In this document: positions 1,746-33,507 of the stretch, one piece after another
How the letters are laid out: the number at the start of each line of letters is the position of its first letter
Numbering within the stretch: the first letter of the stretch is position 1
Assembly (NCBI GenBank): GCA_023489135.1
Contig: JAMDCE010000242.1
Location: 1-33,507 of the forward strand
Reading direction: 5' to 3'
Source: Chloroflexota bacterium
GTDB lineage: Bacteria > Chloroflexota > Chloroflexia > JAMDCE01
Length of the DNA: 33,507 nucleotides
Notes under the pieces: generated by a model
The model's input: the letters and a program-made list of their open reading frames with translations, nothing else
What the model was told of the DNA's origin: nothing
The model's database searches: none
Translations under genes and position numbers: made by a program

Positions 1746-1764
1746 GTGCTCAGAGAGGTGACCG

Positions 1765-7128: not shown

Positions 7129-7577
7129 GGAAAGCACCTCCTTGACGCACTGGGAAATGGTCATGGCTCAGTGCGGCAACGTCACCACGATTCTAACGCT
7201 GGCTTTGTCTGCCAGGCAAGAATCTGCTAATGACCTGAAGTGCCGGCGCGAGCTTGATTTACTGCTATGTGTATGCTAGTATGGCGGCGCTTCCGAAAGT
7301 GCAGGAGGCGCCCCGATTGCAGATGTAATCGATTTGCCGCATCGAGCGATGTAGGAGACGCATCTTTTCTTAAGTGACTCGCGCCCTGCGAAAGGGAATC
7401 TTGCTCCGGTGTTAGCAGAGCGTTCCCAGCCACCGCAACGCTTCTAGCGTGCCGCGTTCGTCGCGCGCGCCAGTCGTTCGGAGAGGCACTTTGGGTAACG
7501 CTGCGCCAAGGTAGAGCGCGACGACCTGTTCGAACCGCACAGTCAGCGTGTCTGCAACCGCACAGAGGAGGTATGGA
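7129..7577. other. Intergenic region with a possible plus-strand promoter
   Basis: No gene is supported here. A possible sigma-70/A promoter is TTGATT (7254-7259), 17-base spacer, TAGTAT (7277-7282), pointing to the first ELWxxDGT gene about 300 bases on. Nothing else was identified in the long leader. Confidence 0.35.
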
Positions 7578-8418
7578 GTGCTCTCGGCTACTCGAATCGC
7601 CCAGAGCATGAGGACCGTTTCCAAGGCGTTGCCAATGACTCGGTACGTTCCTGGCGCGGTCTTCGCAGCGCTGATACTACTAGTTCCGCTTGACCATGCC
7701 TTGTCCAGTAGCCTCCAAACAGCCAACGGGTTGGCTCGTCTGGTCAAGGACATCAGGACTACCCCATCGTCGGCCGACTGTTCTGTTCCCAATACCTTCG
7801 CGGCCGGCGGAAATACCGTGTATTTCATCGCGGACGATGGGGTGCACCATCGAAACTTGTGGCGGAGTGATGGCTCTGCGGCGGGTACGGCTATGGTAGG
7901 TGATCTTTTCGGGGTTTGTGACATCAAGGTCGTGAACGGGGTCGTCTTCTTTTCGGGATACTCCGACTCTGGAATTGAGCTTTGGAGAAGCGACGGGACG
8001 GCAGATGGCACTACGCTGATGATAGATATCAGTGTCGGGCCAACTGGCTCGGATCCCTTCCCCTTTGCCCAGATCGGAGGAATCACTTTGTTCTCCGCCA
8101 CTGATCCGACGAATGGGCGTGAGCTTTGGAGAACCGACGGGACCGAAGCGGGTACTCTCCTCGTCAGGGACATTCAGATGGGAGTTAGCTCGTCCAATCC
8201 GGCCAACGCCTTGAGGCTAGATGGTACCGTGGTTTTCGAGGCCAACGATGGTGTCAGCGGGCGGGAGTTGTGGAGAAGCGATGGGACGAGAGGGGGCACG
8301 ATGCTTCTCGACGATCTTCTTCCAAGCTGATGACGGCGTCACCGGCCGGGAACTTTGGGCTATGCCCGCCTCACTCACGACTCACAAGCTCTTCTTGCCC
8401 GTAGTCACTCGGAATTGA
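7578..8418 (+). pseudogene. ELWxxDGT-repeat exported protein, internally deleted and frameshifted
   Basis: The GTG at 7578 is chosen because AGGAGG lies 6 bases upstream. An N-terminal signal-type helix (VPGAVFAALILLVPL) is followed by four ELWxxDGT units (LWRSDGSAAGT, ELWRSDGTADGT, ELWRTDGTEAGT, ELWRSDGTRGGT). Frame 1 stops just after TMLLDDLLPS at 8330, but another frame from about 8318 reads FFQADDGVTGRELWAM and ends in LFLPVVTRN at 8418, the same tail as the downstream paralogue. A deletion between repeat units, not a multiple of three, explains this. These repeats form beta-propeller-like surface proteins of unknown ligand. The product would lack the C-terminal tail and is probably non-functional unless the shift is a sequencing error. 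Confidence 0.65.
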
Positions 8419-8500
8419 CGGTTTCGCACGGCAAAAGACTTCAGATTGGATCGTGGGTCGCTGCAGGATCCACATCCAATCGGGAAAAGGAGGTCGTCAC

Positions 8501-11377
8501 GTGAGTCGAGCAGCTTTGGCCAAGGGCAAACTCAATGCTTCACACACTGCTTTGCATCGTGGCTGGGCGCTGCCACTTATCACGTTATTGATGCTCCTGC
8601 TGCTCACCGTCTTCCTCTGGCGTCCGCCCTCGGCGGGCGCCGATGGTCCGGCCTATCTCGTCAAAGACATCAACCCTCGGCTGTACCTTACAGGAGGCTC
8701 GTACTCTCAAGAGCTTGTTGAGATCGGCGGCATAGCTTTCTTCTCCGCTGTTGATGGGGCAAATGGGAGTGAGTTGTGGAGGAGCGACGGGACCGCCGCC
8801 GGAACATACATCGTTAGAGACATCAATCAATACGTAGGGGCAGCGCCAGGCACCTTTGGGTCCTCCCCTCATCAGCTCACCAATCTCGACGGGAACCTGT
8901 TCTTCATCGCCGACGACCACGAGCACGGCGCCGAGTTGTGGAAGAGCGACGGCACCGCGTCAGGCACTGTGCTGGTGAAAGACATCTATCCAGGGGAAAT
9001 CGACTCTCACTCTCGCTATCTAACTGCCGTCGCCAACACACTGTTCTTTATGGCCGACGACGGCACCCACGGGTTGGAGTTGTGGAAGAGCGATGGAACC
9101 GAGGAAGGCACCGTGCTCGTGAAGGACATCCGACCGGGCGCGGCCAATGCATTCCCCAACGCTTGCCGCAACGCCCTTTTCAACGCAAATGACACCCTGT
9201 TTTTCTGGGCCGACGACGGCACGAGTGGGTGGGAGTTGTGGAAGAGCGATGGAACCGAGGAAGGCACCGTGCTCGTGAGGGACATTTATCCCGGACCAGG
9301 CGGCTCTCAATCTACCCCATGTGATAGCAGTCCCCCCTTCGCCGACTTACGTGGGACGATCTTCTTCATCGCCAGAGACCAGGTTCACGGCAGCGAGCTG
9401 TGGAAAACCGATGGCACCATCACAGGAACCGTTATGGTGGCAGATATTAACGCCGGCATTGACTGGATATTCCCCCCTACCAGCTCGAACCCCACGAATC
9501 TGATTAGCGTCGGCGGCAGACTGTACTTCAATGCAGACGACGGCATCAACGGGCAGGAGTTGTGGATAAGCGATGGAACGATAACCGGCACTCAGCTCGT
9601 GAGAGACATCTTCTCCGGCGCAACCGGGACGAATCTCACAAGTCTGACCGACATCAACGGGACACTGTTCTTCAGTGCCGCCGACGCCGGGCACGGGTAC
9701 GAGCTGTGGAGGAGCGATGGAACCGAGGGCGGGACGGTCATGGTCAAAGACATCAACCTAGGGGCAAGTGGCTCCAGCCCTGCCTATCTCATCAACGTGA
9801 ATGGGACGCTTTTCCTAGCAGCCAGCGATGGTGTTCACGGCACAGAACTCTGGAAAAGCGATGGGACAGAGTCCGGGACCACCCTCGTCAACGATGTCAA
9901 CCCGGGCCAAGGATCTTCATTAGATAGCTATTCTTCCTTCGTGAACTTGGGCGGCATCCTGCTTTTTGGAGCTAATGACGGCGCGCGCGGCCGGGAGTTG
10001 TGGAGAAGCGACGGAACCGAGGAAGGCACCATACCTCTTACGAATACTGGCCGTAGCGCTTTCAGTTCATCCCCTTACTCCTTCCTAAGCTCGAACGGCA
10101 CCCTGTTTTTCAGCGCCGACGACGGCTCTCACGGCTACGAGTTGTGGAGGAGCGATGCGACAACCTCAGGAACCACGATGGTCAAGGACATCGTCGCGGG
10201 CTCCTATAACTCGTTGATCTACCCCACGGATCTCTACAATTTGAATGGCACGCTTTTCTTCGCCGCTTCAGATTTCTCACATGGATACGAGCTATGGCAA
10301 AGCGACGGAACAGCGGCGGGGACGGTAATGGTGAAGGACATACGGGCTGGCGGCGACTCTCTGAGGCACCCGTTCCAACAGGTTCTTGCCTTCGGGGGAA
10401 AGCTGCTCTTCGAGGCGAATGATGGCAGTCACGGATATGAATTATGGACAAGTGACGGGACCAGTGCCAGCACCTTCATGGTCAAAGACATCAGCCCCGG
10501 CGCAAACGACTCGGCTCCGAGCAGGCTCACCAACATTAACGGAACCCTGTTTTTCGTCGCCAACGATGGCACACACGGGGCGGAGTTGTGGAGGAGCGAC
10601 GGAACCGAGGAAGGCACCTTCATCGTCAAGGACATCAATCCCGGGGCAAATGCGTCGAATCCCTCCAGATTAGCCGACGTATCCGGCACGCTGTTTTTTA
10701 CTGCCAGTGACGGCGCACACGGCGCCGAGTTGTGGAAGAGCGACGGGACTGAGGCCGGAACTCTCCTGGTAAGCGATATCAATTCCGGCGCGAGCGGGTC
10801 GTCCCCGACAGACCTCACCGACGTGAACGGAACCCTGTTTTTCAGCGCCGACGATGGCGTACACGGCCTTGAACTGTGGAAGAGTGAAGGGACCGCGGCA
10901 ACCACTTCGCTCGTAAGAGACATCAAACCAGGCATCGCTGGGTCCTCTCCCTCCAGCCTTAACGGTGAAAGCGGCGTGACTTTCTTCACAGCCGACAATG
11001 GCGCGAACGGCGTCGAGCTTTGGAAGAGCGACGGGACTGAAGCGGGCACATTGATGGTCAAGGATATCTTCGCCGGCCCTGAATCTTCGTCGCCGTCGGC
11101 ACTAATCGCTATTGGAGGAGTTCTCTTCTTTACCGCTTACGAGTCAGGTACCGGTCGCGAGTTGTGGAAGTCCGGCGGTACCGGCGCGACGACAACGATT
11201 GTCCAGGACATCGCCCCAGGGGCGGGTGGGAGTGGTCCGAGAGAGCTCACAGTCGTGGGCTCAACTGCCTTCTTTACCGCCATGGAAAACAGCACCGGAG
11301 AGGAGCTGTGGGCAATGGCTCTTCCACCGTCCACCTACGCAGTCTACCTGCCCGTGCTGACGAGGAACCAGGAATGA
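8501..11377 (+). CDS. ELWxxDGT-repeat exported protein, 17 units
   Basis: A 958-residue protein. The GTG at 8501 has AGGAGG 7 bases upstream; an earlier in-frame GTG (8453) lacks one. After a basic N-region comes a hydrophobic export helix (LPLITLLMLLLLTVFLW, about residues 25-42) ending in SAGADG. The rest is seventeen ~50-residue units each with ELW(K/R)SDGT...GT...V(K/R)DI and LFFxADDGxHG, then a half unit ending ELWAMALPP and the tail YAVYLPVLTRNQE. Repeats of this kind are expected to stack as a beta-propeller-like structure on the cell surface or be secreted; ligand and role are unknown. It follows a broken paralogue. Near-identical DNA in adjacent units shows recent unit duplication. 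Confidence 0.85.
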   Translation: MSRAALAKGKLNASHTALHRGWALPLITLLMLLLLTVFLWRPPSAGADGPAYLVKDINPRLYLTGGSYSQELVEIGGIAFFSAVDGANGSELWRSDGTAAGTYIVRDINQYVGAAPGTFGSSPHQLTNLDGNLFFIADDHEHGAELWKSDGTASGTVLVKDIYPGEIDSHSRYLTAVANTLFFMADDGTHGLELWKSDGTEEGTVLVKDIRPGAANAFPNACRNALFNANDTLFFWADDGTSGWELWKSDGTEEGTVLVRDIYPGPGGSQSTPCDSSPPFADLRGTIFFIARDQVHGSELWKTDGTITGTVMVADINAGIDWIFPPTSSNPTNLISVGGRLYFNADDGINGQELWISDGTITGTQLVRDIFSGATGTNLTSLTDINGTLFFSAADAGHGYELWRSDGTEGGTVMVKDINLGASGSSPAYLINVNGTLFLAASDGVHGTELWKSDGTESGTTLVNDVNPGQGSSLDSYSSFVNLGGILLFGANDGARGRELWRSDGTEEGTIPLTNTGRSAFSSSPYSFLSSNGTLFFSADDGSHGYELWRSDATTSGTTMVKDIVAGSYNSLIYPTDLYNLNGTLFFAASDFSHGYELWQSDGTAAGTVMVKDIRAGGDSLRHPFQQVLAFGGKLLFEANDGSHGYELWTSDGTSASTFMVKDISPGANDSAPSRLTNINGTLFFVANDGTHGAELWRSDGTEEGTFIVKDINPGANASNPSRLADVSGTLFFTASDGAHGAELWKSDGTEAGTLLVSDINSGASGSSPTDLTDVNGTLFFSADDGVHGLELWKSEGTAATTSLVRDIKPGIAGSSPSSLNGESGVTFFTADNGANGVELWKSDGTEAGTLMVKDIFAGPESSSPSALIAIGGVLFFTAYESGTGRELWKSGGTGATTTIVQDIAPGAGGSGPRELTVVGSTAFFTAMENSTGEELWAMALPPSTYAVYLPVLTRNQE
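9076..9278 (+). repeat. 47-bp perfect direct repeat inside the ELWxxDGT gene
   Basis: Bases 9076-9122 and 9232-9278 are identical (47 bases, offset 156 bp = 52 codons, one repeat unit). They encode ELWKSDGTEEGTVLV in two adjacent units. Such identity at synonymous sites points to recent duplication or gene conversion between units. Confidence 0.85.
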
Positions 11378-22426: not shown

Positions 22427-22503
22427 GTGCCCTCCGAGAACAAAAAGCGAATGAAGAAAAGGCGAATCCACGTTTCGTGCACAACTCTTGCTTCGCGCTC
22501 ATA

Positions 22504-22533
22504 ATTATAGTCCCCTGTTATTGAGGGTGTCAA
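22504..22533 (-). promoter_or_regulatory. Consensus sigma-70/A promoter for the yqeY-pgpH-ybeY-dgkA run
   Basis: On the minus strand, a perfect TTGACA (22528-22533) and perfect TATAAT (22504-22509) are separated by 18 bases. Transcription would start near 22497, ~70 bases before the YqeY start. Confidence 0.8.
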
Positions 22534-22549
22534 GGAAGAAACCTACTCC

Positions 22550-22870
22550 CTACGCCCGGCCCGCGAAGGCAGCCTCGTAGATGGCCACCAGGTCATTTTC
22601 TATGGCCCGCCGTGCGTTGGCAGCCGTTTGCTGGTCCGTGGACAAACCTTTCACCAGCTGTGGTATGGCCTCCCTGGTCACCTGTTCCGGGAAGCGGGCG
22701 GGAAAAGACAGGCGACGGTAGAGCGTCTGGAGCCCCAGGAGCGCCAACTCCGGCTCGGGCCTATCCCCGGTCGCTTTTTCTCCCATCACCAGAGTCAGCT
22801 CCGAGAACTTGCCCGGGCCGTCGTAATCACGGAGGCTTCCGCCATTTTCTTTCTTCCAACGTGAAAACAA
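22550..22870 (-). CDS. Hypothetical protein, 106 residues
   Basis: The open frame from a TTG at 22870 starts MFSRWKKENGGSLRDYDGPG and continues through helical, Arg/Glu/Ala-rich sequence (LALLGLQTLYRRLSF and DQQTAANARRAIENDLVAIY). No family is recognised. The open reading extends upstream through APRLYQLF without a proper start codon, and the promoter at 22890-22919 predicts a transcript starting about a dozen bases before this TTG, so it could be nearly leaderless. No ribosome site is seen. It lies between two strong minus-strand promoters. Confidence 0.4.
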   Translation of the reverse strand: MFSRWKKENGGSLRDYDGPGKFSELTLVMGEKATGDRPEPELALLGLQTLYRRLSFPARFPEQVTREAIPQLVKGLSTDQQTAANARRAIENDLVAIYEAAFAGRA

Positions 22871-22889
22871 CTGGTAGAGTCGTGGCGCG

Positions 22890-22919
22890 AGTATATGGCC
22901 GGGGATGGTGGCGTGTCAA
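22890..22919 (-). promoter_or_regulatory. Sigma-70/A promoter upstream of the 106-residue gene
   Basis: Minus-strand TTGACA (22914-22919) and TATACT (22890-22895) are separated by 18 bases. It is divergent from the plus-strand promoter at 22951-22979. Confidence 0.6.
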
Positions 22920-22950
22920 GGCAACCAGTCGTTCAACCGCTCCGGGCGGG

Positions 22951-22979
22951 TTGACTTAGCGCTACCGGTGCAATATAAT
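22951..22979 (+). promoter_or_regulatory. Sigma-70/A promoter for the prpD-like gene
   Basis: TTGACT (22951-22956), 17-base spacer, perfect TATAAT (22974-22979). The predicted leader before the GTG at 23260 is about 275 bases, long enough for RNA control, though only a short TAGCC-TGA-GGCTA hairpin (near 23038) was recognised in it. Confidence 0.7.
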
Positions 22980-23259
22980 GCAGCCGATCTCTCACTCGGG
23001 TACGTACGAGCCCGTGGTGCACCGGCTACTTTCTGAGTAGCCTGAGGCTATCGACGATGATGGCAGCAATTCTTGGCCGTGTGCCGCTGCTTCCTCAACT
23101 GTCGACCTCTCGCGCAGGCGATTCGACAGCTGCAGGACACTTTCTCGGAGAAGCCACATGTTATCCCGGCCACCCAGACCACGCGCCTTTCAATAAGAAG
23201 CTCGAGATATTCTACCAAGGCCGAAAGAGTAAACCTGTCTTGAACAAGGAGTGGATACG

Positions 23260-24648
23260 GTGGAAGACACGATCTGCGCTCTCTCGCGGCACCTGAAGGC
23301 CACCACCTTTGACGGTCTGCCTTTGGAAGCCGTCGAGCGCGCTAAGATGTCCTTCCTGGACGTCGTTGGCGCCCTGGTTGCCGGCGCCACGGCACGTGGT
23401 TGCCGGGAGGTGGTGGACCTGGTTCTGGAGTGGGGCGGAAAGCCGGAGAGCACCGTACTCATGCGCGGAGGCAAGGTTCCCGCCCACAACGCCGCTCTGG
23501 CCAACTCGGTCATGGCGCGAGCGCTCGATTTCGACGACTCGATGTACAAGGGACTGCACCTCAGCGCGTCCCTGGTGCCCACGGCCATCGCGGTGGCCGA
23601 GAAACGCGGGAAAGTGTCGGGAAAGGAAATGCTGGCGGCCATCGCCCTGGGAACGGACATCGCCGGCCGCATCGATTACGCCACGGTGGACTACGACGGA
23701 TTCGATCCGACCATCTGCTGCGGCATCTTCGGATCCACCGCCGTTGCCGCCAGGCTGCTCGACCTGAACGAAGATCAGATCGCCAGCGCCTTCGGCATCG
23801 CCTTGAACCAGGCCTCCGGGACCATGCAGAGCAACGTGGACGGCGTGTTGAGCGTCCGGCTGAACCAGGGCATCGCCGCCAGCGCCGGCATCACCTCGGC
23901 GCTGTTCGCGAGCCGGGGCATCACGGGCGTGAGACAGGTCCTGGACGGCCAGTGGGGCTACTTCCACCTCTTCTCCAAGGACAAACGCGTGGCCGAGCAC
24001 CTGGTCGATAGGCTGGGATCGGTTTTCTACGGCAACCGCACCCAGTTCAAGCGCTGGCCGAGTTGCGGCTCCACGCTCTCCGCCACCGACGCGGCCGTCG
24101 AGCTGGTCGAGCAGAGTCACGTCCGGCCCGACGAGATCGAGAAGATACTGGTGAGGTGCGGTCGATTCGTGCTCAGCCTGGTCGGCCACCCGTTCGAGAT
24201 CGGCGACAACCCAGAGGTCAACGCTCAGTTCAGCGTGCGCTATGCCGTGGCCAACGCCATCCTGAGAGGGCATCCAAGACTGGAGCATTTCGGCGAGAAG
24301 CTGGTGCGCGACCCGGAGGTCATGGATCTGGCCAAGCGAGTAGACACCGTGGTGGACGAGAGCCCACAGTTCAACCAGCCTCCCTTCTACGTGGGAGCGG
24401 AGGTCAGCTTCATTCTGAGAGATGGCCGGACCTTGACCCGGTACGTCAAGGCCTGGAAGGGCCACTACACCAACCCGCTCGCGATGGACGACATCGTCGA
24501 GAAGTTCAACAAGAACCTTAGCTACGCCTCGCCCTGGTTCGACACTTCGCGGGGCACGACCATCCTGGATTTCGTCACGAACCTTGAAACGGCCGATGAC
24601 GCGACGCCGCTGATCGGGGCGCTAAAGTTTGATGGAGCGGTCAATTGA
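23260..24648 (+). CDS. MmgE/PrpD family protein
   Basis: A 462-residue protein of normal family length. Recognisable MmgE/PrpD segments: AKMSFLDVVGALVAGA near the N-terminus, HNAALANSVMARALDFDDSM (residues ~80-100, with the H and the DFDD residues of the active-site helix), IALGTDIAGRI, GIFGSTAVAARLL, KRWPSCGSTLSATDAAVEL, and NAQFSVRYAVANAIL. Members include 2-methylcitrate dehydratase, cis-aconitate decarboxylase and iminodisuccinate epimerase; which reaction applies here cannot be read. The GTG at 23260 is chosen over one at 23251 because AAGGAG sits 8 bases upstream. It heads a plus-strand group with the orphan lipoprotein and the PhtD-like protein. Confidence 0.85.
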   Translation: MEDTICALSRHLKATTFDGLPLEAVERAKMSFLDVVGALVAGATARGCREVVDLVLEWGGKPESTVLMRGGKVPAHNAALANSVMARALDFDDSMYKGLHLSASLVPTAIAVAEKRGKVSGKEMLAAIALGTDIAGRIDYATVDYDGFDPTICCGIFGSTAVAARLLDLNEDQIASAFGIALNQASGTMQSNVDGVLSVRLNQGIAASAGITSALFASRGITGVRQVLDGQWGYFHLFSKDKRVAEHLVDRLGSVFYGNRTQFKRWPSCGSTLSATDAAVELVEQSHVRPDEIEKILVRCGRFVLSLVGHPFEIGDNPEVNAQFSVRYAVANAILRGHPRLEHFGEKLVRDPEVMDLAKRVDTVVDESPQFNQPPFYVGAEVSFILRDGRTLTRYVKAWKGHYTNPLAMDDIVEKFNKNLSYASPWFDTSRGTTILDFVTNLETADDATPLIGALKFDGAVN

Positions 24649-24683
24649 CAGGGACTTGCGTTGGCGTGCCACCGAGAGCGATT

Positions 24684-24759
24684 TCCCACCGCAGAGGCGC
24701 AGAGGTATTCCTTGTTATCTCCGCGTTATCTCTGCGTCCTCTGCGCCTCTGCGGTGGGA
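24684..24759. repeat. Perfect 22-bp inverted repeat (CCACCGCAGAGGCG type)
   Basis: Arms at 24684-24705 and 24738-24759 are perfectly complementary over 22 bases around a 32-base loop. The loop contains a short direct repeat (TTATCTCCGCG, TTATCTCTGCG). Repeats of the CCACCGCAGAGGCGCAGAGG kind are widely dispersed in environmental bacterial genomes. Lying between prpD and the lipoprotein gene, it could reduce read-through or stabilise the upstream mRNA end. It lacks a T-run. Confidence 0.85.
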
Positions 24760-24870
24760 TACTAGGTACCCGTGACCGACCACGCAAGGCCCGCCGGCAA
24801 GCGCCGTTGGACGTTTGATTATTGGCTCAACCTCACCGACTCGCAGCACAAAATTGGAGGAAGAAGGAAG

Positions 24871-26061
24871 ATGCAACTGACGAACAAATCTCGGATCGGG
24901 CTATTTTCCGTGGCCTTGATACTGGTCGCGTCGCTGTCGATCAGCGCCTGCGCCGCCACGGCAACGCCCACGCCGACGAAAGCCCCGGCCTCGGCGGAGA
25001 CCAAGGCTCCGGCGGCTACCAAACCCGCGGGAGCGGCGACCAAGGCTCCCGAGTCGGCCGCCACCAAAGCGCCTGAGCCGACCAAGCCGGCTGCCAAGGC
25101 ACCGGCGCCACCGGCCGGCCCATCGACTCAAATCAAGTTCGCCGACGCCGCCAGCTTCGCCTACGCCCCTCTTTACTGGGCCATCGAAAAGGGCTATTTC
25201 AAGGAAGCCGGCATTGACTTCACTTTTGATACCAAGGCCAGCGCCGCCGACATCGTCCCATTCCTGGCCACCGGGCAGCTGGACATGGCCGGTGGAGGGT
25301 TGAGCGCGGCATACTTCAACGCCATCGCGCGCGGCATCGACCTCAAGATCATCACGCCTATGGGGCTTCTCCCGCCGAAACGCGGATCGGTGCCTATCGT
25401 CGTGACGAACGAGCTCTACGAGAAGGCTTCGCCCAAGACGGCGGCGGCGTTGAAGGGGAAGACGGTGGCCATCAATGCGAAGGGTGGCATCGTGGAGTAT
25501 ATCCTGACCAAGGCGCTGCAAAAAGAGGGCCTGGACCTCAAGGACGTGGAGACGATAATCCTGTCCTTCCCGGACATGCCCACCGCGCTGGCCGGCAAGA
25601 AGGTAGACGCCATAGTTACCGCGGAGCCCTATGGCACCAGGGCCGTCCAACTGGGGGCGGGGAAGGTGCTCCTCGACGATATTCTGCCGGGCAAGAGCAC
25701 CACGGTGATGTTTGCCAGCCCCAAGCTGGTCACCGACCGCCCGGAGATTCTCAAGAGCTTCATGGTGGCGTGGATGCGCGGAGTCAGAGACCTGCAGGAT
25801 GAGAGCAAGCTGTATACCGACGACAAGATGGCCGTCTGGGTGAAATACACCAAGCTGCAGGCGGACGTCATTAAGGCGATGGCAGCATTCAACTGGGATC
25901 CGGATCTCAACATCCAGAAAGACGTGATCGCAGATCAGCAGAAAGTCCACGGAGATCACGGGCTGCTGAACTACAAGGAACCGATACCGGTGGAGAAGAT
26001 GATCGACGAGTCCTTCGCCAAGTACGCCAGGGAGAAGCTCGGGCCCTGGAAGAAGCAGTAA
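24871..26061 (+). CDS. NMT1/THI5-like ABC transporter substrate-binding lipoprotein
   Basis: A 396-residue protein. The ATG at 24871, preceded by GGAGG 10 bases upstream and AAGGAAG directly before it, gives a lipoprotein signal peptide ending in LSISAC (cysteine at residue 27). A low-complexity Ala/Pro/Thr/Lys linker (about 30-85) leads to the periplasmic-binding domain: FADAASFAYAPLYWAIEKGY, an IDFTFDTKASAADIVPFLAT segment, QLDMAGGGLSAAYFNAIARG and VDAIVTAEPYGTRAVQLGAG. This is the NMT1/SsuA/ThiY type, which captures small organic ligands such as pyrimidines, sulfonates or aromatic acids. No permease or ATPase gene follows, so it is an orphan. Ligand unknown. Confidence 0.88.
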   Translation: MQLTNKSRIGLFSVALILVASLSISACAATATPTPTKAPASAETKAPAATKPAGAATKAPESAATKAPEPTKPAAKAPAPPAGPSTQIKFADAASFAYAPLYWAIEKGYFKEAGIDFTFDTKASAADIVPFLATGQLDMAGGGLSAAYFNAIARGIDLKIITPMGLLPPKRGSVPIVVTNELYEKASPKTAAALKGKTVAINAKGGIVEYILTKALQKEGLDLKDVETIILSFPDMPTALAGKKVDAIVTAEPYGTRAVQLGAGKVLLDDILPGKSTTVMFASPKLVTDRPEILKSFMVAWMRGVRDLQDESKLYTDDKMAVWVKYTKLQADVIKAMAAFNWDPDLNIQKDVIADQQKVHGDHGLLNYKEPIPVEKMIDESFAKYAREKLGPWKKQ

Positions 26062-26090
26062 GGACGAAGTAACTGACTGGGGGGTGCTTC

Positions 26091-27083
26091 GTGTCCAAAC
26101 TCCGCCTCACTCTGGCCTGCGCCGATTACGATAGGACCCAGGGGCTCAAGGACGGGTCGATTCAGCCCGAGGGGATAGACCTCAATTACTTGACCCTGGC
26201 GCCCACGGAGATATTCTGGAGGATGTTCCGCTACGAGGACTTCGACGCCTCGGAGGTTTCTCTTTCATCATACCTGCTGGAAAGATCGCGGGGGATGACT
26301 CGCTTTGTGGCCATACCGGTCTTCCCTTCGCGGTTCTTCCGCCACAGCGGCATCTTCGTCAACACCGACGCGGGCATCGAGCGCCCGGAGGATCTGGCGG
26401 GCAAGCGAGTGGGCATGCCGGAGTACGAGGTTACGGCGGCGGTTTGGACACGAGGCTTTCTACAGCACGACCACGGCGTCACGCCGGACCAGGTGCTGTG
26501 GTTCACGGGAGGCGTAGAGCAACCGGGGCGCAAGGAGAAGCTCAGTCTACGCCTTCCCGCCGACGTTCGCGTCCAACCCATCCCGGAGGGGCGGACCTTG
26601 AGCGGGATGTTGGAAAGCGGGGAGCTGGACGCCCTGGCCGTGGCCAGGACTCCGTCCTGCTTTCTGCGAGGCTCACCCAAGGTGCGCCGATTGTTCCCGG
26701 ACTACCGAACGGTGGAGATGGAGTACTACAAGCGCACCGGGATCTTCCCCATCATGCACACCCTGGCCATCAGGGAAGAGGTGTACAGAAACAACCGGTG
26801 GGTGGCAGATAGCCTTTACAAAGCTTTCTGTCAGGCCAAAGAGGCCTGCTATCATCGAATGATAGAAACCGGCTGGTCCACCTACACGCTTCCCTGGTTC
26901 GGAGCGGAGCTGGACGCCTCGAGAGAGGTTCTTGGCTACGATCTCTGGCCCTACGGACTGGAACCCAACCGGACAACCCTCGAGGCACTGGCCCAGTATT
27001 CCTACGAACAGGGACTGGCCGAAACACGGCCAGAGATCGAAAGCCTCTTCGCTCCGTCCACTCTGGACGAATTCAGGATTTGA
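26091..27083 (+). CDS. PhtD-like protein (4,5-dihydroxyphthalate decarboxylase family)
   Basis: A 330-residue protein with no signal peptide, matching the family annotated as 4,5-dihydroxyphthalate decarboxylase: LRLTLACADYDRTQGLKDGS, SEVSLSSYLLERSRG, FVAIPVFPSRFFRHSGIFVN, RPEDLAGKRVGMPEYEVTAAVWTRG, and FPIMHTLAIREEVYRNN. The fold is related to NMT1-like binding proteins, and many members may bind a ligand rather than decarboxylate one. The GTG follows GGGGGGTGCTTC. It lies 29 bases after the lipoprotein gene and may share its ligand chemistry. Its stop overlaps the radical SAM gene stop on the other strand by 11 bases. Confidence 0.82.
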   Translation: MSKLRLTLACADYDRTQGLKDGSIQPEGIDLNYLTLAPTEIFWRMFRYEDFDASEVSLSSYLLERSRGMTRFVAIPVFPSRFFRHSGIFVNTDAGIERPEDLAGKRVGMPEYEVTAAVWTRGFLQHDHGVTPDQVLWFTGGVEQPGRKEKLSLRLPADVRVQPIPEGRTLSGMLESGELDALAVARTPSCFLRGSPKVRRLFPDYRTVEMEYYKRTGIFPIMHTLAIREEVYRNNRWVADSLYKAFCQAKEACYHRMIETGWSTYTLPWFGAELDASREVLGYDLWPYGLEPNRTTLEALAQYSYEQGLAETRPEIESLFAPSTLDEFRI

Positions 27084-28377
27084 TGCCACCACCGGCTGCT
27101 CCGTCGGCCAATTCGGACCGGCGCGAGGCGGGGCTGCTTCCGTGCCAATAGGCGAAATCGTACTCCGTGCCGTGCGATAGGCAGCTGCGGCAGAAAGTGG
27201 ACACCGGAGTCGAGTAGCCGTGTTTCTCTCTGAGCTGCAAGTACCCCCGGCCGATCTTGATGTAATACTCTAGAGGAGGGGGCTCCTGGCCGCCGAGCCG
27301 CGACTGTTGCTCGACCACCCAGAACTGGCCCTGCCGGGGCAGAACCCCGTGCTTCATCAGGTAGTCCCATCCGCCCAGGGTGGACTCCACGGCCTCGTCG
27401 ACCCCCTTGAAGCCAAAGGGCTGAGCCATCTCCACCCCCGGCACGAAATTGGGATTTACGTTGCCTCTTCCCCAGTAATCCACCGCTCGCAGCGTCCGCT
27501 CGATCCAGAGATCGTAGCCCACGGCCCGGGCTTTTCCGGGACAGGCAATCTCGAAAATCCGCCGGTCCCAGACCTCGATATTGGGCTGGATCGTGGGGAC
27601 TTCCGTGTCTCGCAACCGCTTCCAGCCCTCGTCATCCTGGGCGCTGACCTGGAATGAGGTCGGGTACCAAACCCTGAGCCTGCTTCGTATCCCCTCCAGA
27701 AGCTCACAATACCAGTCGAGCTGGCTCTTGCCGTTGTACTCGGTAAGGATCGTGCCGCCGGAGATGCTGAGGTGCCGGAAGCGCGGTTCTTGAAAGGCCA
27801 CTTCCAGCACAATCGCCGCCTGCTCGGCCTGCTTGCGCAGGATCATCGTCTCCCCGCCCTTCTTCTGGGCGCTGGCGTGGGGGGTGAGATCGCAAAACAG
27901 GCACTGCTCTTTGTTGGAGAAATGCTCGCAATGCTTGTTGGCGGTGAAGAAGAGAAAATCGTTGTGAGCGTAGACGATGGCGGCCATCGGCACCCCGTCG
28001 ACGTACCTGCTGAAATAGGCCGGCGGATGGTCGAAATGAATCCGGCCGAGGGATTGCTCACCGTAGAGCAAGTAAAACCCTGCCCCATCCCAATCGATGA
28101 CGTAGGGACTTCGGTCATAGCGCCGAACCTGAATCACCGTCCCGGCCGCGGTCCCATCCTCGAGCATAAAGACGTAGGGGATTCGATCGTCGTACATCAC
28201 CGGCGCGCCGCGGTCGTGAGAGAAGAGCATAAACCCCTTGAACAGAACATCATCTCGACGCGACAAAGCGTGCCCTGCTGGCGCGCTGATGCGCAGGCCC
28301 TGCCGCAACACGTCGGACTTGACGATGATACTCTTCTCGACGTCTGGAAAGGCCGCGAAGGCCTCAAACAGTTCCAT
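27073..28377 (-). CDS. Radical SAM protein (paralogue 1)
   Basis: A 434-residue protein. The cluster-binding motif is CEHFSNKEQCLFC (CX8CX2C), unlike the canonical CX3CX2C; the aromatic residue before the last Cys is retained. It is followed by the glycine-rich SAM-binding element SISGGTI and, further on, PNIEVWDRRIFEIACPGKAR and GVEMAQPFGFKGVDEAVEST. The N-terminal ~150 residues form a separate domain. A C-terminal CRSCLSHG motif (about residue 405) could ligate another cluster or zinc. The ATG at 28377 has AAGGAGG 12 bases upstream; earlier in-frame codons (to 28455) lack one. It is a paralogue of the gene immediately upstream. Substrate unknown. Confidence 0.8.
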   Translation of the reverse strand: MELFEAFAAFPDVEKSIIVKSDVLRQGLRISAPAGHALSRRDDVLFKGFMLFSHDRGAPVMYDDRIPYVFMLEDGTAAGTVIQVRRYDRSPYVIDWDGAGFYLLYGEQSLGRIHFDHPPAYFSRYVDGVPMAAIVYAHNDFLFFTANKHCEHFSNKEQCLFCDLTPHASAQKKGGETMILRKQAEQAAIVLEVAFQEPRFRHLSISGGTILTEYNGKSQLDWYCELLEGIRSRLRVWYPTSFQVSAQDDEGWKRLRDTEVPTIQPNIEVWDRRIFEIACPGKARAVGYDLWIERTLRAVDYWGRGNVNPNFVPGVEMAQPFGFKGVDEAVESTLGGWDYLMKHGVLPRQGQFWVVEQQSRLGGQEPPPLEYYIKIGRGYLQLREKHGYSTPVSTFCRSCLSHGTEYDFAYWHGSSPASRRSELADGAAGGGIKS

Positions 28378-28470
28378 TCTTACCGATTGCCTCCTTGTGA
28401 GCCAAATCCCTACTCCATCCAGTTGCGCGGGGATCTTTCGTATGTTTCTCCTCAAGCGTGCCGGATCGGA

Positions 28471-29769
28471 CTAGCCCTCGAAGTCCAGCGCAGCGGTATG
28501 CTGATAAACGGATATCCCGGTCCCCATCTGGAATCCTCTGAGGGGAGGCAGGCTGTACTTCTTCCAGGTCTCGTACCAGGCCTTATCCACTCGAATGAAG
28601 TACTCCAGTGGCGGAATCCTGTTGTCGCCCAGGGCCGAGAGTGGCTCGATGCACCAGACGGGGATTCGCGGCACTACTCCACGAGACATCAGAAATTCTA
28701 TCCCTTCAGTCATCGACTTGACCGCCTGATCCACTTCCTTGAATCCCCAGGGCTGGCACATCTCCACTCCGGCCACCATGCCGGGCGACACGTTGCCTTC
28801 GCCGAAGACGTCCACCGAATCCAGCACCCGCTTGATCCACTCGTCCCACCCGAAATGCGCGGCCTTGCCCGGACAGAGGATATTGAACAGGTTCTTATCC
28901 CAGACCTCGATGTTGGCCTCGTGGGCGTCCACGCCCGCCTCACGCATCTTCTTGCAGGTAGCCTTGTCTTTGGCGTTGGTCTGAAGTATCAGCGGCCAGC
29001 GGTTGCCGATGCGCTCTTTGATCGCACGCACGTATTCGAGATAGAAGTCCTCGTCCGCCACCAGGCCGCTCTTGGGATCGATGATACTGCCACCGCTGAG
29101 GCGCAGGGACAGCCGCCGAGGCTCGTCGTCCGGCTGGTTGAGGAATACTTCCGCTGCCGCCTCGGCCACCTGTTCCACCTTCTTGCGCATGGTGTAGGGA
29201 CGGCCCGATTTCTTGAGCGATCGCGCGTTGGCGTTCAGGTCGCAGAATTTGCATTCCTGCTTCTTACCCCAATGTCCGCACACCCGGAGCAAAGTGGAGA
29301 AAGCCCGGTGGCCCCAGCCGATCACCGCCATCGTTTCGGAGTAGAGAGTACCGTCCTCGAAGGCCTTCGAGTAGTACCTCGGAACGGGAGGGTACTGGAC
29401 CTCGGCCAACACCTCTCCCTCCTCGCGCAGGACGGTCTTTCCATCCACGACATCCACTATGTAGGGGGAATCCTTGGCAAAGCGCGACCCAACCAGCGTG
29501 GGCCGAAGCTGATAGGGTCCTTGAGAGAGGCGGATCTCATCCGGGGCGCGAGAGCTCTCCTGCTTCTCCATCTCCCCGAGTCCAGTCTGGTCGTAGGAAA
29601 AGATATAGTAGGTACGGGGGCGCTTGTCGTTTCCGGCTTGCAGCGCCTCTTCAGAAAAGCGCACGCCCAGGCGCAGGATGTCCTCTTTCACAATGACTTC
29701 CTTCGGAACTTCCGGAAATACCCCGAAGTAGCGCTCTATCTCGGCCCTTCGCGAAGTGAAAACCTGCAT
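28471..29769 (-). CDS. Radical SAM protein (paralogue 2)
   Basis: A 432-residue protein. It carries CGHWGKKQECKFC (CX8CX2C), the glycine-rich RLSGGSI element, then ANIEVWDKNLFNILCPGKAA and GVEMCQPWGFKEVDQAVKSM, all aligned in order with the downstream paralogue; it lacks the C-terminal CX2C of that protein. Radical SAM enzymes cleave S-adenosylmethionine to a 5'-deoxyadenosyl radical; the reaction here is unknown. The ATG at 29769 is chosen because AAGGAGGG lies 8 bases upstream. It lies 80 bases downstream of the ferredoxin gene on the same strand, so probably in one operon with the Mo enzyme. Confidence 0.83.
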   Translation of the reverse strand: MQVFTSRRAEIERYFGVFPEVPKEVIVKEDILRLGVRFSEEALQAGNDKRPRTYYIFSYDQTGLGEMEKQESSRAPDEIRLSQGPYQLRPTLVGSRFAKDSPYIVDVVDGKTVLREEGEVLAEVQYPPVPRYYSKAFEDGTLYSETMAVIGWGHRAFSTLLRVCGHWGKKQECKFCDLNANARSLKKSGRPYTMRKKVEQVAEAAAEVFLNQPDDEPRRLSLRLSGGSIIDPKSGLVADEDFYLEYVRAIKERIGNRWPLILQTNAKDKATCKKMREAGVDAHEANIEVWDKNLFNILCPGKAAHFGWDEWIKRVLDSVDVFGEGNVSPGMVAGVEMCQPWGFKEVDQAVKSMTEGIEFLMSRGVVPRIPVWCIEPLSALGDNRIPPLEYFIRVDKAWYETWKKYSLPPLRGFQMGTGISVYQHTAALDFEG

Positions 29770-29849
29770 CGATGCTGCCCTCCTTAAGTCTCTCACCAGT
29801 GTGGCCAAAGTATGCCGGCAAATCACGAGTTGCGCCGGCGAAAGATGGG

Positions 29850-30623
29850 TTACTCGTCATCCTGGGTGTAGCACATGAGCTCCTGGGCCGTGCGCGGCTT
29901 CAGGACCAGTCTGTCTCGTCCCCGAATCCCAGGCGGCACGTTGGTGACGTCTTCCGGTGATTCGAATAACGGAGGTAAGGCCGACGACGCAAACGGCCCC
30001 CTGCCTCGCCACAGCCTGAGCACGTCCGAAGGGTCAAAGGGCACCAGCTGCCGCTTGGGATCGCTCTTCTTGAAGATCGCGGCCGGTCGGGCCTTTACTT
30101 GTTGAGGCAAGCCCTCAAGGGCATCGCCCCGACCGTACCATTGCGTCAAGTTGTCCAAGGTGTCGAAGTCGAGGGCCCTCAGTGAACACCCAAGCACGCA
30201 GATGGGCTTATTCCCCTGGTAAAGGCGATCCACGCACATAGTGCACTTAGACATAGTGGCCCGCGGGTCGTCACCGTCGAACTGCGGAGCGCCGTAGGGG
30301 CAAGCCATCCAGCAGCGTCGACAGTCCATCTCCTTGTGCACTTCTTCGCAGCCGCGGCCATCCACCAGCACGGCGCCGAATCTGTCTTCCTTATGAATCG
30401 CCCCAACCGGGCAGGCCGCCAGGCAGGGCGGGTTCTCGCAGTGGTAGCATGGTATCGCCAGAACGTGGGCGCGCACCGTGGGGAAACTGCCTGTCTCCCA
30501 TTGGAAAACCCTCATCCACTTCACCGGACCCGGCGGGGTCTCGTTCCAGCTCTTGCACAAAATGGAGCAGGCGTGGCAGCCGGTGCAGCGACTTTGATCG
30601 TAGTAGAAGCCATACTGCGTCAC
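29850..30623 (-). CDS. Four-cluster ferredoxin subunit (DmsB/PhsB-like)
   Basis: A 257-residue protein. The GTG at 30623 is supported by AAGGAG 7 bases upstream, inside the Mo-enzyme stop region (4 bases between genes). Four [4Fe-4S] motifs: CTGCHACSILC, CYHCENPPCLAACP, a third spread over CEEVHKEMDCRRCWMACP, and CTMCVDRLYQGNKPICVLGC. The third normally reads CXXCXXCXXXCP; here six extra residues separate the first two cysteines. Proteins of this type pass electrons between a catalytic Mo subunit and a partner. No NrfD/DmsC anchor gene is adjacent. A ~95-residue C-terminal extension is unrecognised. Confidence 0.87.
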   Translation of the reverse strand: MTQYGFYYDQSRCTGCHACSILCKSWNETPPGPVKWMRVFQWETGSFPTVRAHVLAIPCYHCENPPCLAACPVGAIHKEDRFGAVLVDGRGCEEVHKEMDCRRCWMACPYGAPQFDGDDPRATMSKCTMCVDRLYQGNKPICVLGCSLRALDFDTLDNLTQWYGRGDALEGLPQQVKARPAAIFKKSDPKRQLVPFDPSDVLRLWRGRGPFASSALPPLFESPEDVTNVPPGIRGRDRLVLKPRTAQELMCYTQDDE

Positions 30624-30627
30624 AATA

Positions 30628-33093
30628 CTACTCCTTTGCCTTCTCAACTTGCACCAGGGTGGATGCGGGCGCCGGGGTTGGGGGGCTATCGGAATCGCCC
30701 AGCAGAACGTGAGGAGCTATCCCCCCTTCCGGCGAGTACCAGGCCCCCTGTCTAACCACGGTCACGCCGGGAGGGATTCGCGAGGTAACGTAGGCGGGGA
30801 GGAAGATCTCGCCCTTGTCGTTGAACACGCGCACGACCTCGCCATCGGAGATGCCCCTTGTTTGCGCGTCGGCCACGCTGAGCCAGACGGCGTGGCGATA
30901 AACGTCGCCCCGCAGCCAGGGAACCGTCCAGAAAAGGGAGTGTACCCGGTACCTGCTATGGGGCGTCAGCATCATTAGAGGATACCTGTGGCCCAGCTCG
31001 TCTTCGAGGCCACGCACGGCAGGCTGATATACCGGCAATGGCTGCAGGTCTCTCCAATCGTTGGGCAGGTTGTCGATCAGCCTGCCCAGGTGATCGCGGT
31101 GTACCCGTCCACGCTGCTCCTCATTCGCGATCAAGTGGGAGTGGACCTCGAACTTGCCCGATTGGGTCAGAAAAGGCTGTTCCTGTTCGATCTCCCGGGT
31201 AAAACCAAAGAAGGGTCTATCGTGGTGCTCGTCGAGGTGAATGAATTCTCCAGCTTTGAATTCCTCCCAGCTCGGGGTAGGGAACTCGAGCTTCTCGGCG
31301 CATTCCTCGTATGATTCCCGCTGATAACGTTCCCAGTCTTCGTCCCATCGCTCGTCGGTGGTATAGTAGCGGTTGAACTCCTTACCAAAGCCCAATCTGA
31401 CGGCTATCTTCGTGAGAATCCATTCCATCGGTCTGACTTCCCCGGGCGCAGGGGCCACGCCTGGGCCACACGAAATGGAGGAGAAGCCGCCATAGGAGCT
31501 AGGAAGCACGCTCAGCTGTTCCCACATGGGGTCCATAGCCGGAAGGATGAGGTCGGCATAGCGCGCGGTCGGCGTCATCGCGGTGTGGGTCGTGAGGACA
31601 AAGTCGAGACGGTGAAGCGCCCGAATCTGGTCGTGCGTGGAGTCGCAGCCGGTGCTGAGATGGTTGGAGCCGGTGTGGTACAGGCCCCCCCACCACAGCA
31701 TCTTGGGATGGAACTCCTCGGGGAGGGGAAGCTCAGGCGCGCCTTTGTAGCCCACTTGCGCTCGCCAATCGTCAGGGCTCAATTCGCCGGTGTTGACCTC
31801 ATCCAGCAGCAGAATTGCCTGGGCCCATTTGTGGCTGCGGCATATCTTGGGGACCACGTAGCCGGTAGGCGCATCGCCCAATGGCCTGGCCGCGGCCGGC
31901 TTGGGCCAGGCGCCGAAATAATAGGGCATGATCCCGCCGGGGAGGCCAAAGTAGCCCATCATGGCCTGAAGGGCGGCTGCTCCCCGCGCGGAGTTCTCAC
32001 CACGGCTCTTGCGGGCCACCGCCCAGTGCTTGTAGAGCCAGGTTGGCTTGCTGCGCGCGTACAGCCGGGCGAACTCCGCGATGGTGTAGGCGGGAATGCC
32101 GCAGATGTTCTCGGCCCAATGCGGGGTCTTGGCCACGCCGTCGTCCAAGCCCAATACGTAGCGTCGCCACTTCTCGATTCCTTCTACATCGACGAATCGG
32201 CGCACGAAGTCTTCATCGTAGAGCTTTTCCTCGAACAGGATGTGGGCAATGGCCAGAATGAAAGCCATATCGGTGCCCGGCTTGATCGGTATCCATTGGT
32301 CGGCGAGCACTTCGGCCGCCATAGTGTAGCGCGGATCTATGCAAATGACCGGGGTGCCGCGCTCCCTCGCCATCTTGATGTACCAGGCCAACTGGTGCCC
32401 GGGCCCATGATGGGCCGTGGTGGGGTCGAATCCCCATAGTACGATCAGCCTCGAATTGAAAAGCACATCGGCGGCAGAAGAAGATCCATAGGCCTCCCAT
32501 CCCATTCGCCCGGCCGTGAGATGAGTGGCCAGTCGCTCGGAGTCGCAGGAGCACCAGCCCCAGGTATCCAAACCCGCTCCCCAGAACCCGAACAGTCGCT
32601 CGACGTTGGCGTTGGGCCAAAAAGGGGTCATGATCGAATATGGGCCGAATTCTTCACGATACTCGGTCATTCGTTCCACGATGGTGTCCAGCGCCTCATC
32701 CCAGGACACGCGCTGGAAATCGGCGTCACCCCTCCGGCTGCCCGCCCTGCGTTTGAGAGGATTGAGGATGCGGTTGGGATCGTGGAGGTGCTTGTGCCAC
32801 ATCCAACCCATGGGGCAAGCTCGTCGCTGAACCTTGGCGTGCACCAGGTCCAGGTCGGAGAGGGTACGATCCTCGCGTCCAACACCTCGATTGTAGCGAT
32901 CGTCGGGCTCAATGGTAACGACACGCCCGTCTCTCACGTGAGCTTTGAGGACGCACTGGCTGGTGCCCCCGCAGTTGGCCTTACAGCCGGTGTACGCGGT
33001 GGTCGTACCCTGGTGCTGTTGCGAAAGTTCCCGGATTATTCGTTCTACGGCCGGCCGCTCATTGCCGGCCTCGGCTGCCTCGGGATAAGCCAT
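30628..33093 (-). CDS. Molybdopterin oxidoreductase, catalytic subunit (DMSO reductase family)
   Basis: An 821-residue bis-MGD enzyme. The N-terminal [4Fe-4S] site is C37, C41, C47 and C93 (CKANCGGTSQC, RACPMGW). The Mo-ligand region reads WGWCSCDSERLATHLTAGR (C181, C183, S185 candidates), followed by VLWGFDPTTAHHGPGHQLAW, ICIDPRYT and WIPIKPGTDMAFILAIAHIL. Late elements are TGCDSTHDQIRALHRLDFVL, ADLILPAMDPMWEQ and the C-terminal MGD-binding beta domain (TPHSRYRVHS, SDGEVVRVFNDKGEI). There is no twin-arginine signal, which predicts a cytoplasmic enzyme. Substrate unknown; relatives include DMSO reductases, acetylene hydratase and pyrogallol transhydroxylase. GAGG lies 8 bases before the ATG. 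Confidence 0.88.
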   Translation of the reverse strand: MAYPEAAEAGNERPAVERIIRELSQQHQGTTTAYTGCKANCGGTSQCVLKAHVRDGRVVTIEPDDRYNRGVGREDRTLSDLDLVHAKVQRRACPMGWMWHKHLHDPNRILNPLKRRAGSRRGDADFQRVSWDEALDTIVERMTEYREEFGPYSIMTPFWPNANVERLFGFWGAGLDTWGWCSCDSERLATHLTAGRMGWEAYGSSSAADVLFNSRLIVLWGFDPTTAHHGPGHQLAWYIKMARERGTPVICIDPRYTMAAEVLADQWIPIKPGTDMAFILAIAHILFEEKLYDEDFVRRFVDVEGIEKWRRYVLGLDDGVAKTPHWAENICGIPAYTIAEFARLYARSKPTWLYKHWAVARKSRGENSARGAAALQAMMGYFGLPGGIMPYYFGAWPKPAAARPLGDAPTGYVVPKICRSHKWAQAILLLDEVNTGELSPDDWRAQVGYKGAPELPLPEEFHPKMLWWGGLYHTGSNHLSTGCDSTHDQIRALHRLDFVLTTHTAMTPTARYADLILPAMDPMWEQLSVLPSSYGGFSSISCGPGVAPAPGEVRPMEWILTKIAVRLGFGKEFNRYYTTDERWDEDWERYQRESYEECAEKLEFPTPSWEEFKAGEFIHLDEHHDRPFFGFTREIEQEQPFLTQSGKFEVHSHLIANEEQRGRVHRDHLGRLIDNLPNDWRDLQPLPVYQPAVRGLEDELGHRYPLMMLTPHSRYRVHSLFWTVPWLRGDVYRHAVWLSVADAQTRGISDGEVVRVFNDKGEIFLPAYVTSRIPPGVTVVRQGAWYSPEGGIAPHVLLGDSDSPPTPAPASTLVQVEKAKE

Positions 33094-33229
33094 AACATCG
33101 ACCTCGAAGGGAAGCCATCTCGGGAAGGCCCGGTAGGAAAGACGTCATCCGTTCGGTGTGGTCCTTCCCCAGCGGGCACATATCGATTACCCATCTCAAT
33201 AGGTCGGACCCTTTCCAAACGCCGGCACC

Positions 33230-33258
33230 ATACTAACATCGGCAACTTCCCATGTCAA
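33230..33258 (-). promoter_or_regulatory. Promoter for the Mo enzyme / ferredoxin / radical SAM operon
   Basis: Minus-strand TTGACA (33253-33258) and TAGTAT (33230-33235) are separated by 17 bases, about 135 bases before the ATG at 33093. It is divergent from 33297-33325. Confidence 0.6.
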
Positions 33259-33296
33259 CGCGGCGTCTTGCCGACCAGTCGTTGCTTGCCGGTCCT

Positions 33297-33325
33297 TTTA
33301 CATAGTTATGCAAATGTGCTATCAT
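33297..33325 (+). promoter_or_regulatory. Promoter for the gene starting at 33372
   Basis: TTTACA (33297-33302) and TATCAT (33320-33325), 17-base spacer, ~46 bases before the GTG. Confidence 0.55.
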
Positions 33326-33371
33326 TCACGCGGCCACGCGGCGGAGGAAATGCTGTTGTGAGGGAGTGGAC

Positions 33372-33507
33372 GTGATCGAAGCCATCGTTGATCTGCTGAG
33401 CGGCGAGCATCTGTTCGACCCCAACCCCGGTCCGGCCTCGCCATACTACGCGATCTTCGGATTCATCTTTGCCGTCATCGCCGGCGCGAGCCTGGCCCTG
33501 TACCTGA
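33372..33507 (+). CDS. N-terminus of a membrane protein, cut by window end
   Basis: GTG start with GAGGGAG 5 bases upstream. The visible 45 residues begin VIEAIVDLLSGEHLFDPNPG and enter a membrane helix (YYAIFGFIFAVIAGASLALYL). The frame is open to the window edge. It is divergent from the Mo enzyme operon. The family cannot be told. Confidence 0.6.
   Translation, partial: MIEAIVDLLSGEHLFDPNPGPASPYYAIFGFIFAVIAGASLALYL

Follow-up and report, generated by a model that had tools for sequence, protein, structure and literature searches.

Two convergent gene sets at one locus

The window, a stretch of 33,507 nucleotides from a Chloroflexota bacterium (positions 1 to 33,507 of contig JAMDCE010000242.1, GenBank assembly GCA_023489135.1), carries seven genes that form two sets on opposite strands. 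The plus-strand set encodes an MmgE/PrpD-family protein (PrpD), an NMT1-type solute-binding lipoprotein and a PhtD-family protein that resembles 4,5-dihydroxyphthalate decarboxylase. The minus-strand set encodes a molybdenum (Mo) subunit of the dimethyl sulfoxide (DMSO) reductase family, a DmsB-like ferredoxin (Fd) and two variant radical S-adenosylmethionine (SAM) proteins called rSAM1 and rSAM2 (Table 1). A first-pass annotation had proposed that these genes constitute an undescribed anaerobic pathway. Open reading frames (ORFs) and family matches confirm all seven genes on the strands it gave, with the two sets converging tail to tail, and the four clusters that it attributed to the ferredoxin are visible as four cysteine sets in the translation.

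The 3′ ends of the PhtD and rSAM1 genes share 11 bases. With the likelier start codons, the minus-strand genes are separated by 4 (Mo–Fd), 80 (Fd–rSAM2) and 93 (rSAM2–rSAM1) bases. The preferred Fd start has the sequence AAGGAG immediately upstream, and the same sequence at 23246–23251 suggests that the real start of PrpD is the GTG at 23260.

A promoter-like site was also said to precede each set, and both sites are present as matches to the sigma-70 consensus. The region 22500–33507 holds nine promoter-like sites, compared with a mean of 2.4 (s.d. 1.4) in shuffled sequence. This excess is suggestive only, as it consists of consensus matches and is no evidence of function.

Table 1 Positions of the seven genes and of the two candidate promoter sites in the window
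Feature	Position	Likelier start	Strand	Evidence
Sigma-70-like promoter site, TTGACT-17-TATAAT	22951-22979		+	Consensus match alone (11/12); ~270 bp upstream of PrpD
MmgE/PrpD-family protein (PrpD)	23251-24648	GTG 23260	+	PF03972 196.1 bits; PF19305 105.9 bits
NMT1-type solute-binding lipoprotein	24868-26061		+	PF13379 81.7 bits; PF09084 76.1 bits
PhtD-family protein, 4,5-dihydroxyphthalate decarboxylase-like	26091-27083		+	9jp7_A E 4.9e-93; plasmid homologues
rSAM1, variant radical SAM protein, CX8CX2C	28455-27073	ATG 28377	-	NF045502 170.3 bits; tree
rSAM2, variant radical SAM protein, CX8CX2C	29826-28471	ATG 29769	-	NF045502 197.4 bits; predicted model; fold matches
DmsB-like protein (Fd), four [4Fe-4S] cysteine sets	30647-29850	GTG 30623	-	TIGR02951 144 bits (cut-off 214.1)
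DMSO-reductase-family Mo subunit	33093-30628		-	PF00384; PF01568; TIGR02166 388.5 bits (cut-off 777.7)
Sigma-70-like promoter site, TTGACA-17-TAGTAT	33258-33230		-	Consensus match alone (10/12); ~137 bp upstream of Mo

Variant radical SAM proteins

Both radical SAM proteins pass the 125-bit cut-off of family NF045502, 'variant_rSAM', and neither is matched by the Pfam family Radical_SAM. Their cluster motif reads CX8CX2C, which replaces the canonical CX3CX2C and is shared by 105 of 106 collected sequences, the remaining one having CX7CX2C. Other radical SAM proteins with non-canonical cysteine spacings exist, and because such spacings are known elsewhere, the missing canonical motif marks rSAM1 and rSAM2 as variant members. 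The features that characterize the superfamily fold and its cluster site are present: a radical SAM barrel, and behind its first strand the three cysteines for the cluster. The predicted model of rSAM2 (mean pLDDT, a per-residue confidence score, 91.4) matches folds of the LipA/HydE/BioB type, and its structural neighbours include the maturases HydE and NifB. A search of PDB sequences with rSAM2 returned no match, and the best match to a profile built on rSAM2 reached an E value of only 0.46.

The first-pass annotation described the pair as paralogous. They are paralogues, though of old divergence, because rSAM1 and rSAM2 fall in different groups of the radical SAM tree. This tree comprises 105 of the 106 collected sequences, one of fewer than 380 residues being left out, and conservation was counted over 104 rows, with the outlier L129_9900 also omitted. 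The organism labels in the tree cover more than ten phyla. At locus L005, two variant radical SAM genes, one of them with CX7CX2C, stand in tandem (7119-9827), and their neighbours were read by eye as indolepyruvate oxidoreductase-like and aminotransferase-like genes.

The nearest named relative of the window proteins is the Nit1C radical SAM protein (TIGR04043, the MSMEG_0568 family), which, from the link between the names, we take to be NitD of the nit1C cluster. The two are alike in general type: an excerpt of PMC1199592 describes the Nit1C protein as biotin-synthase-related, and the window model has a fold of the biotin-synthase/HydE/LipA type. In contrast, the window proteins score only 51.9 and 69.6 bits against the TIGR04043 cut-off of 303.7, and there is no nitrilase among the window genes scanned. 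The papers found assign no reaction to the variant family NF045502.

A Mo enzyme in a clade of its own

The best curated matches of the Mo subunit and Fd are the DmsA/YnfE family TIGR02166 and the DmsB family TIGR02951, respectively, although both scores lie under the curated cut-offs (Table 1). Fd also matches PDB entry 2vpw_B (E 2.1e-25). As in DmsAB/YnfEFG, the gene for the Mo subunit precedes that for its Fe–S partner. Furthermore, Ser182 aligns with a serine that we take to be the Mo ligand in DMSO reductase, and is present in 120 of 120 homologues. This alignment supplies the serine ligand by which type III DMSO reductases are recognized. The four Fe–S cysteines of the Mo subunit are each kept in 117 to 120 of the same 120 homologues.

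Despite these likenesses, the window pair differs from DmsAB/YnfEFG in several respects. The Mo subunit is 30% identical to Escherichia coli DmsA, and in the Mo tree it falls in an eight-row clade (support 100/100) apart from DmsA, YnfE, YnfF and TorA. A phylogeny of this kind was one of the checks that the first-pass annotation had recommended, and the window protein does not lie inside a known-substrate clade among the references used, which were E. coli DmsA, YnfE, YnfF, TorA and FdhF, without pyrogallol transhydroxylase and acetylene hydratase. The tree has 45 of 48 rows; E. coli BisC (cut gene), G002_22 (long branch) and P0132 (a near-copy of G001b) were left out. No twin-arginine translocation (Tat) signal is visible in the sequence of the Mo subunit, and no DmsC-like gene is present among the ORFs seen. 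Because no Tat signal is visible, the enzyme is likely to be soluble and cytoplasmic.

Both subunits also match pyrogallol hydroxytransferase (transhydroxylase) by sequence, with E values of 1.8e-37 for the Mo subunit and 4v4c_A and 2.9e-11 for Fd and 4v4c_B. We take that enzyme to be a soluble pair of Mo and Fe–S subunits, like the window pair. The window Mo subunit, however, scores higher against DMSO and trimethylamine N-oxide reductases, a distinction that comes from scores rather than from tree placement. Among Mo-enzyme matches in two compared Chloroflexi genomes, G001 and G002, six contain one in-frame TGA that possibly encodes selenocysteine (G002:C242, C217, C106 and C61; G001:C64 and C27).

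Plus-strand proteins

The PhtD-family protein matches the solved 4,5-dihydroxyphthalate decarboxylase 9jp7_A along its full length (residues 1–329 of 330). It has 197 plasmid homologues, and the 15 of these that were listed are 49–56% identical to it; nine carry the name substrate-binding protein, one is called 4,5-dihydroxyphthalate decarboxylase and five have no listed gene. Neither a phthalate dioxygenase nor a dihydrodiol dehydrogenase was found among the window ORFs scanned. According to an excerpt of PMC13040137, 4,5-dihydroxyphthalate decarboxylase belongs to the aerobic phthalate pathway, whereas the anaerobic pathway uses UbiD-like decarboxylases. Since the decarboxylase pathway described there is aerobic, PhtD offers no evidence for the anaerobic pathway that had been proposed.

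PrpD has both the N- and C-terminal MmgE/PrpD domains, and its nearest PDB relatives are cis-aconitate decarboxylases. When it is aligned to these enzymes (residues counted by hand), His103 is kept, but His159 is replaced by Asp and His277 by Cys. In the part of PMC7347537 that treats these residues, His103 and His159 are conserved between species and His277 is not conserved in the Bacillus enzyme. We therefore do not name the window protein a cis-aconitate decarboxylase, because a residue kept across species, His159, is replaced. Nor does the protein reach the TIGR02330 cut-off of 458 bits for the 2-methylcitrate dehydratase PrpD, with a score of 43.6 bits.

The NMT1-type lipoprotein carries the lipobox ISAC, read by eye in its translation. 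No ATP-binding cassette permease or ATPase partner for it was found among the window ORFs scanned.

The seven-gene set is not conserved as a unit

Genome contigs were scanned with rSAM2, and the best 80 of 269 confirmed stretches were taken as loci; the flanks extend to at most 10 kb in either direction and are often cut short by the end of the contig. Neighbouring genes were assigned from the longest ORFs and by BLAST searches of a small reference set; the choice of ORF is wrong for some genes where the DNA is GC-rich, and absent neighbours are thus weaker evidence than present ones. The labels CaiB, SDR, TctC, Rieske, IOR and BCAT come from reading N-terminal sequence by eye. Among these 80 loci, the Mo reference was matched at two (27% and 22% identity), PrpD at one, Fd at one, and NMT1 and PhtD at none. 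Among 50 genomes with an rSAM2 relative, picked from the 80 loci, the Mo subfamily (E ≤ 1e-120) is present in 2, G001 and G002.

At E ≤ 1e-200, a search of 400 genomes from the phylum of G001, which is the sole genome of its order in the comparison set, recovered the Mo subunit in 1, and at E ≤ 1e-120 it occurs in 6 of 294 genomes of the class. rSAM2 (E ≤ 1e-60) occurs in 7 of 301 genomes of the phylum of G002, and rSAM1 (E ≤ 1e-80) in 3 of 393 genomes of its class. Relatives closer still, with identities of up to 78% for Mo and 72% for rSAM2, occur in the protein collection on further contigs and stand outside the neighbourhood counts.

The first-pass annotation held that repeated co-occurrence of the Mo subunit with the radical SAM genes would speak for a unit, and such repetition was not observed in the genomes compared. 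The closest whole-genome relatives of the Mo subunit, both in genome G456 (72% and 71% identity), adjoin Fd relatives (75% and 68%), and no radical SAM gene was matched beside them in the fetched stretches or on their contigs. G456 has four NF045502 matches, one of them under the cut-off, all on other contigs. Across G456, G001 and G002, one of six Mo relatives with at least 47% identity shares its contig with a radical SAM gene, which lies about 11 kb away (G001:C84). In G002, 2 of 18 radical SAM genes have a Mo gene no more than 6 kb away when 1.76 are expected, which is chance level; in G001 the figure is 1 of 2 against 0.29. Both expectations are rough and assume an even spread of genes.

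The pairing of the plus-strand set with the minus-strand set is not repeated among the loci fetched, and literature searches returned no paper whose title concerns this seven-gene set. The parts of the proposed pathway unit lie apart in relatives. Homologues lying apart among unrelated neighbours were an outcome that the annotation itself had named as counting against its view, and the data go some way towards it: homologues do lie apart with other neighbours, and Mo and radical SAM genes in G002 are close to one another no more often than chance predicts.

Partial associations in paralogue-rich genomes

Smaller groupings do recur. The Mo gene adjoins the Fd gene in nine pairs from five genomes (three in G002, two each in G456 and G502, and one each in G518 and G533); Fd does not adjoin Mo at G001:C36, G001:C84, G002:C139 (a contig end), C22 and C89. 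At G001:C84, PrpD lies near relatives of Mo and rSAM2. Three rSAM1-type genes (60%, 60% and 59% identity) are present at G002:C256, one of them directly upstream of a PrpD relative (46%), in surroundings that include UbiD, AOR and solute-binding proteins. Of 77 scan loci, 5 have rSAM2-type genes beside HyuA/HyuB, with four of these in a single clade, and G456:C161 shows the same arrangement; loci L012, L038 and L068, whose contigs are duplicated as other loci, were left out of the 77.

Relatives of the seven-gene locus's parts sit with UbiD, AOR, OYE and HyuA/HyuB genes. Together with the PhtD match, these neighbours make breakdown of a carboxylated, perhaps aromatic, compound, as the first-pass annotation suggested, a reasonable proposal.

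Some further observations concern the same stretches. At L001, L003, L006, L007, L011 and L160, the HyuA and HyuB genes (hydantoinase/oxoprolinase) are no more than 6 kb from an rSAM2-type gene, and four of the HyuA/HyuB-linked loci come from sulfate reducers and a Desulfotomaculaceae genome. Stretches of G002 with variant radical SAM genes also encode an MtmB-like methyltransferase (L131:984-2354), a MutE-like mutase subunit (L133:4131-5669) and a glycyl radical enzyme (L139:9416-11854).

Solute-binding proteins provide another recurrent association. Of 146 solute-binding-protein genes listed in G002, at least one is no more than 2.5 kb away from 27 of the 78 PrpD genes, compared with about 9 expected (hand arithmetic). 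For 15 of 19 variant radical SAM genes, spread over 8 of 10 contigs, the distance to a solute-binding-protein gene is at most 600 bp. A rough even-spread model put the chance of the latter at about 1e-6 by contig. Nevertheless, we dropped the idea that this closeness is special to radical SAM genes, as the PrpD control was equal or higher. Because the radical SAM rate is no higher than that of PrpD, the association is one with catabolic genes at large.

Both compared Chloroflexi genomes hold many paralogues of the locus families. G002 (loci L129-L135, L137-L139 and L092-L096) has at least 150 SBP_bac_8 genes (150 of 320 candidates were scored), 78 MmgE/PrpD genes that pass the cut-off, 19 NF045502 variant radical SAM genes and about 53 Mo genes (from 56 matches, of which three are second pieces), and G001 (L089-L091 and L136) has 39 Mo genes in 3.2 Mb. 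With this many paralogues per family, members of these families are expected to meet often by chance, and a modular catabolic locus is the reading that best fits the seven genes.

Other features of the window

The left flank of the seven-gene set consists of ordinary genes, including those for a PgpH-like 7TMR-HD protein and YqeY. Farther away, a DDE_5 transposase and an HNH-type ORF overlap on opposite strands at 917-3180, likely as a mobile element, and a 974-residue ORF at 8453-11377 has scattered beta-propeller and DUF5980 matches. Scans of the window with Rfam (gathering thresholds) and for tRNAs gave no match.

Interpretation

In our view, a Chloroflexota-like bacterium here carries a modular catabolic locus, composed of two convergent cassettes rather than one conserved seven-gene pathway, and we assign this reading a probability of roughly 55%. 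The closest relatives of the Mo subunit and of rSAM1 point to such a host. The reading starts from what the analysis shows, namely the gene identities, the motifs, the predicted fold, the clades and the patchy linkage. In the plus-strand cassette, the lipoprotein would capture a carboxylated substrate, and the PhtD-type decarboxylase and the MmgE/PrpD-type lyase would act on that substrate or its products. In the minus-strand cassette, the soluble DmsAB-like Mo/Fe–S enzyme may carry out an oxygen-atom-transfer or hydroxylation-type redox step whose electrons would be routed through the four-cluster ferredoxin, and radical chemistry on small molecules would fall to the two variant radical SAM enzymes, in each of which CX8CX2C would hold a single SAM-binding cluster.

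Several points weigh against this reading. The substrates, the reactions, the life style and a substrate common to both cassettes are matters that we infer. The known pathway that contains a PhtD step is aerobic, in the excerpt of PMC13040137. Of the 78 PrpD genes of G002, 5 have a Mo gene at a distance of 6 kb or less, against about 7.6 expected (hand arithmetic), which is not above chance. Finally, when the same listed solute-binding-protein genes are used for both families, the link is no stronger for radical SAM genes (5 of 18) than for PrpD (27 of 78).

The two cassettes might instead be unrelated and merely abut, with the lipoprotein, PrpD and PhtD serving one compound and the Mo subunit, Fd and radical SAM proteins another, and with the two brought together because genes of these kinds crowd the genome. 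The convergent orientation, a promoter-like site for each set, a pairing unrepeated in the fetched loci, and the many paralogues per family in G001 and G002 are all consistent with this account. We find it less likely, however, given that an rSAM1-type gene and PrpD occur together once elsewhere, at G002:C256, and that PrpD lies near Mo and rSAM2 relatives at G001:C84. If all seven products acted on one carboxylated compound in a single dedicated and undescribed pathway, as the first-pass annotation envisaged, the tight packing of the genes would be expected and every enzyme type would have a plausible role in carboxylated-compound catabolism. Such a pathway is nonetheless unlikely in view of the 80 rSAM2 loci, with their two distant Mo matches, single PrpD match and lack of NMT1 and PhtD, and of the two closest whole-genome Mo relatives, whose contigs lack radical SAM genes.

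A role for the radical SAM proteins in maturing the Mo enzyme, or in building a cofactor for it, is suggested by the position of their genes directly downstream of Mo and Fd on the same strand and by the presence of HydE and NifB among the fold neighbours. Yet those two closest Mo relatives have no radical SAM neighbours, 48 of the 50 genomes with rSAM2 relatives lack the Mo subfamily, and the closeness of the two families in G002 is what chance would give. These results render such a role highly improbable.

We tentatively suggest that CX8CX2C radical SAM proteins could be an uncharacterised class of catabolic, not biosynthetic, radical enzymes that has multiplied within single Chloroflexota genomes (19 copies in G002). 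Each copy might open or rearrange a different carboxylated substrate, delivered by a lipoprotein encoded nearby, before UbiD, PrpD, HyuAB, AOR or Mo enzymes act. The locus would then combine a Mo enzyme with members of two lineages of the class that separated long ago.

The negative linkage result indicates that, where a genome is rich in paralogues, gene closeness says little about membership of a pathway. If the locus is indeed modular, catabolic modules would be numerous in some groundwater Chloroflexota, with no assignment yet for their key chemistry. Of the parts of the locus, the variant radical SAM family would then be the one that combines the least known function with a wide spread, and the reaction of one of its members would inform many genes that are at present named only 'radical SAM protein'.

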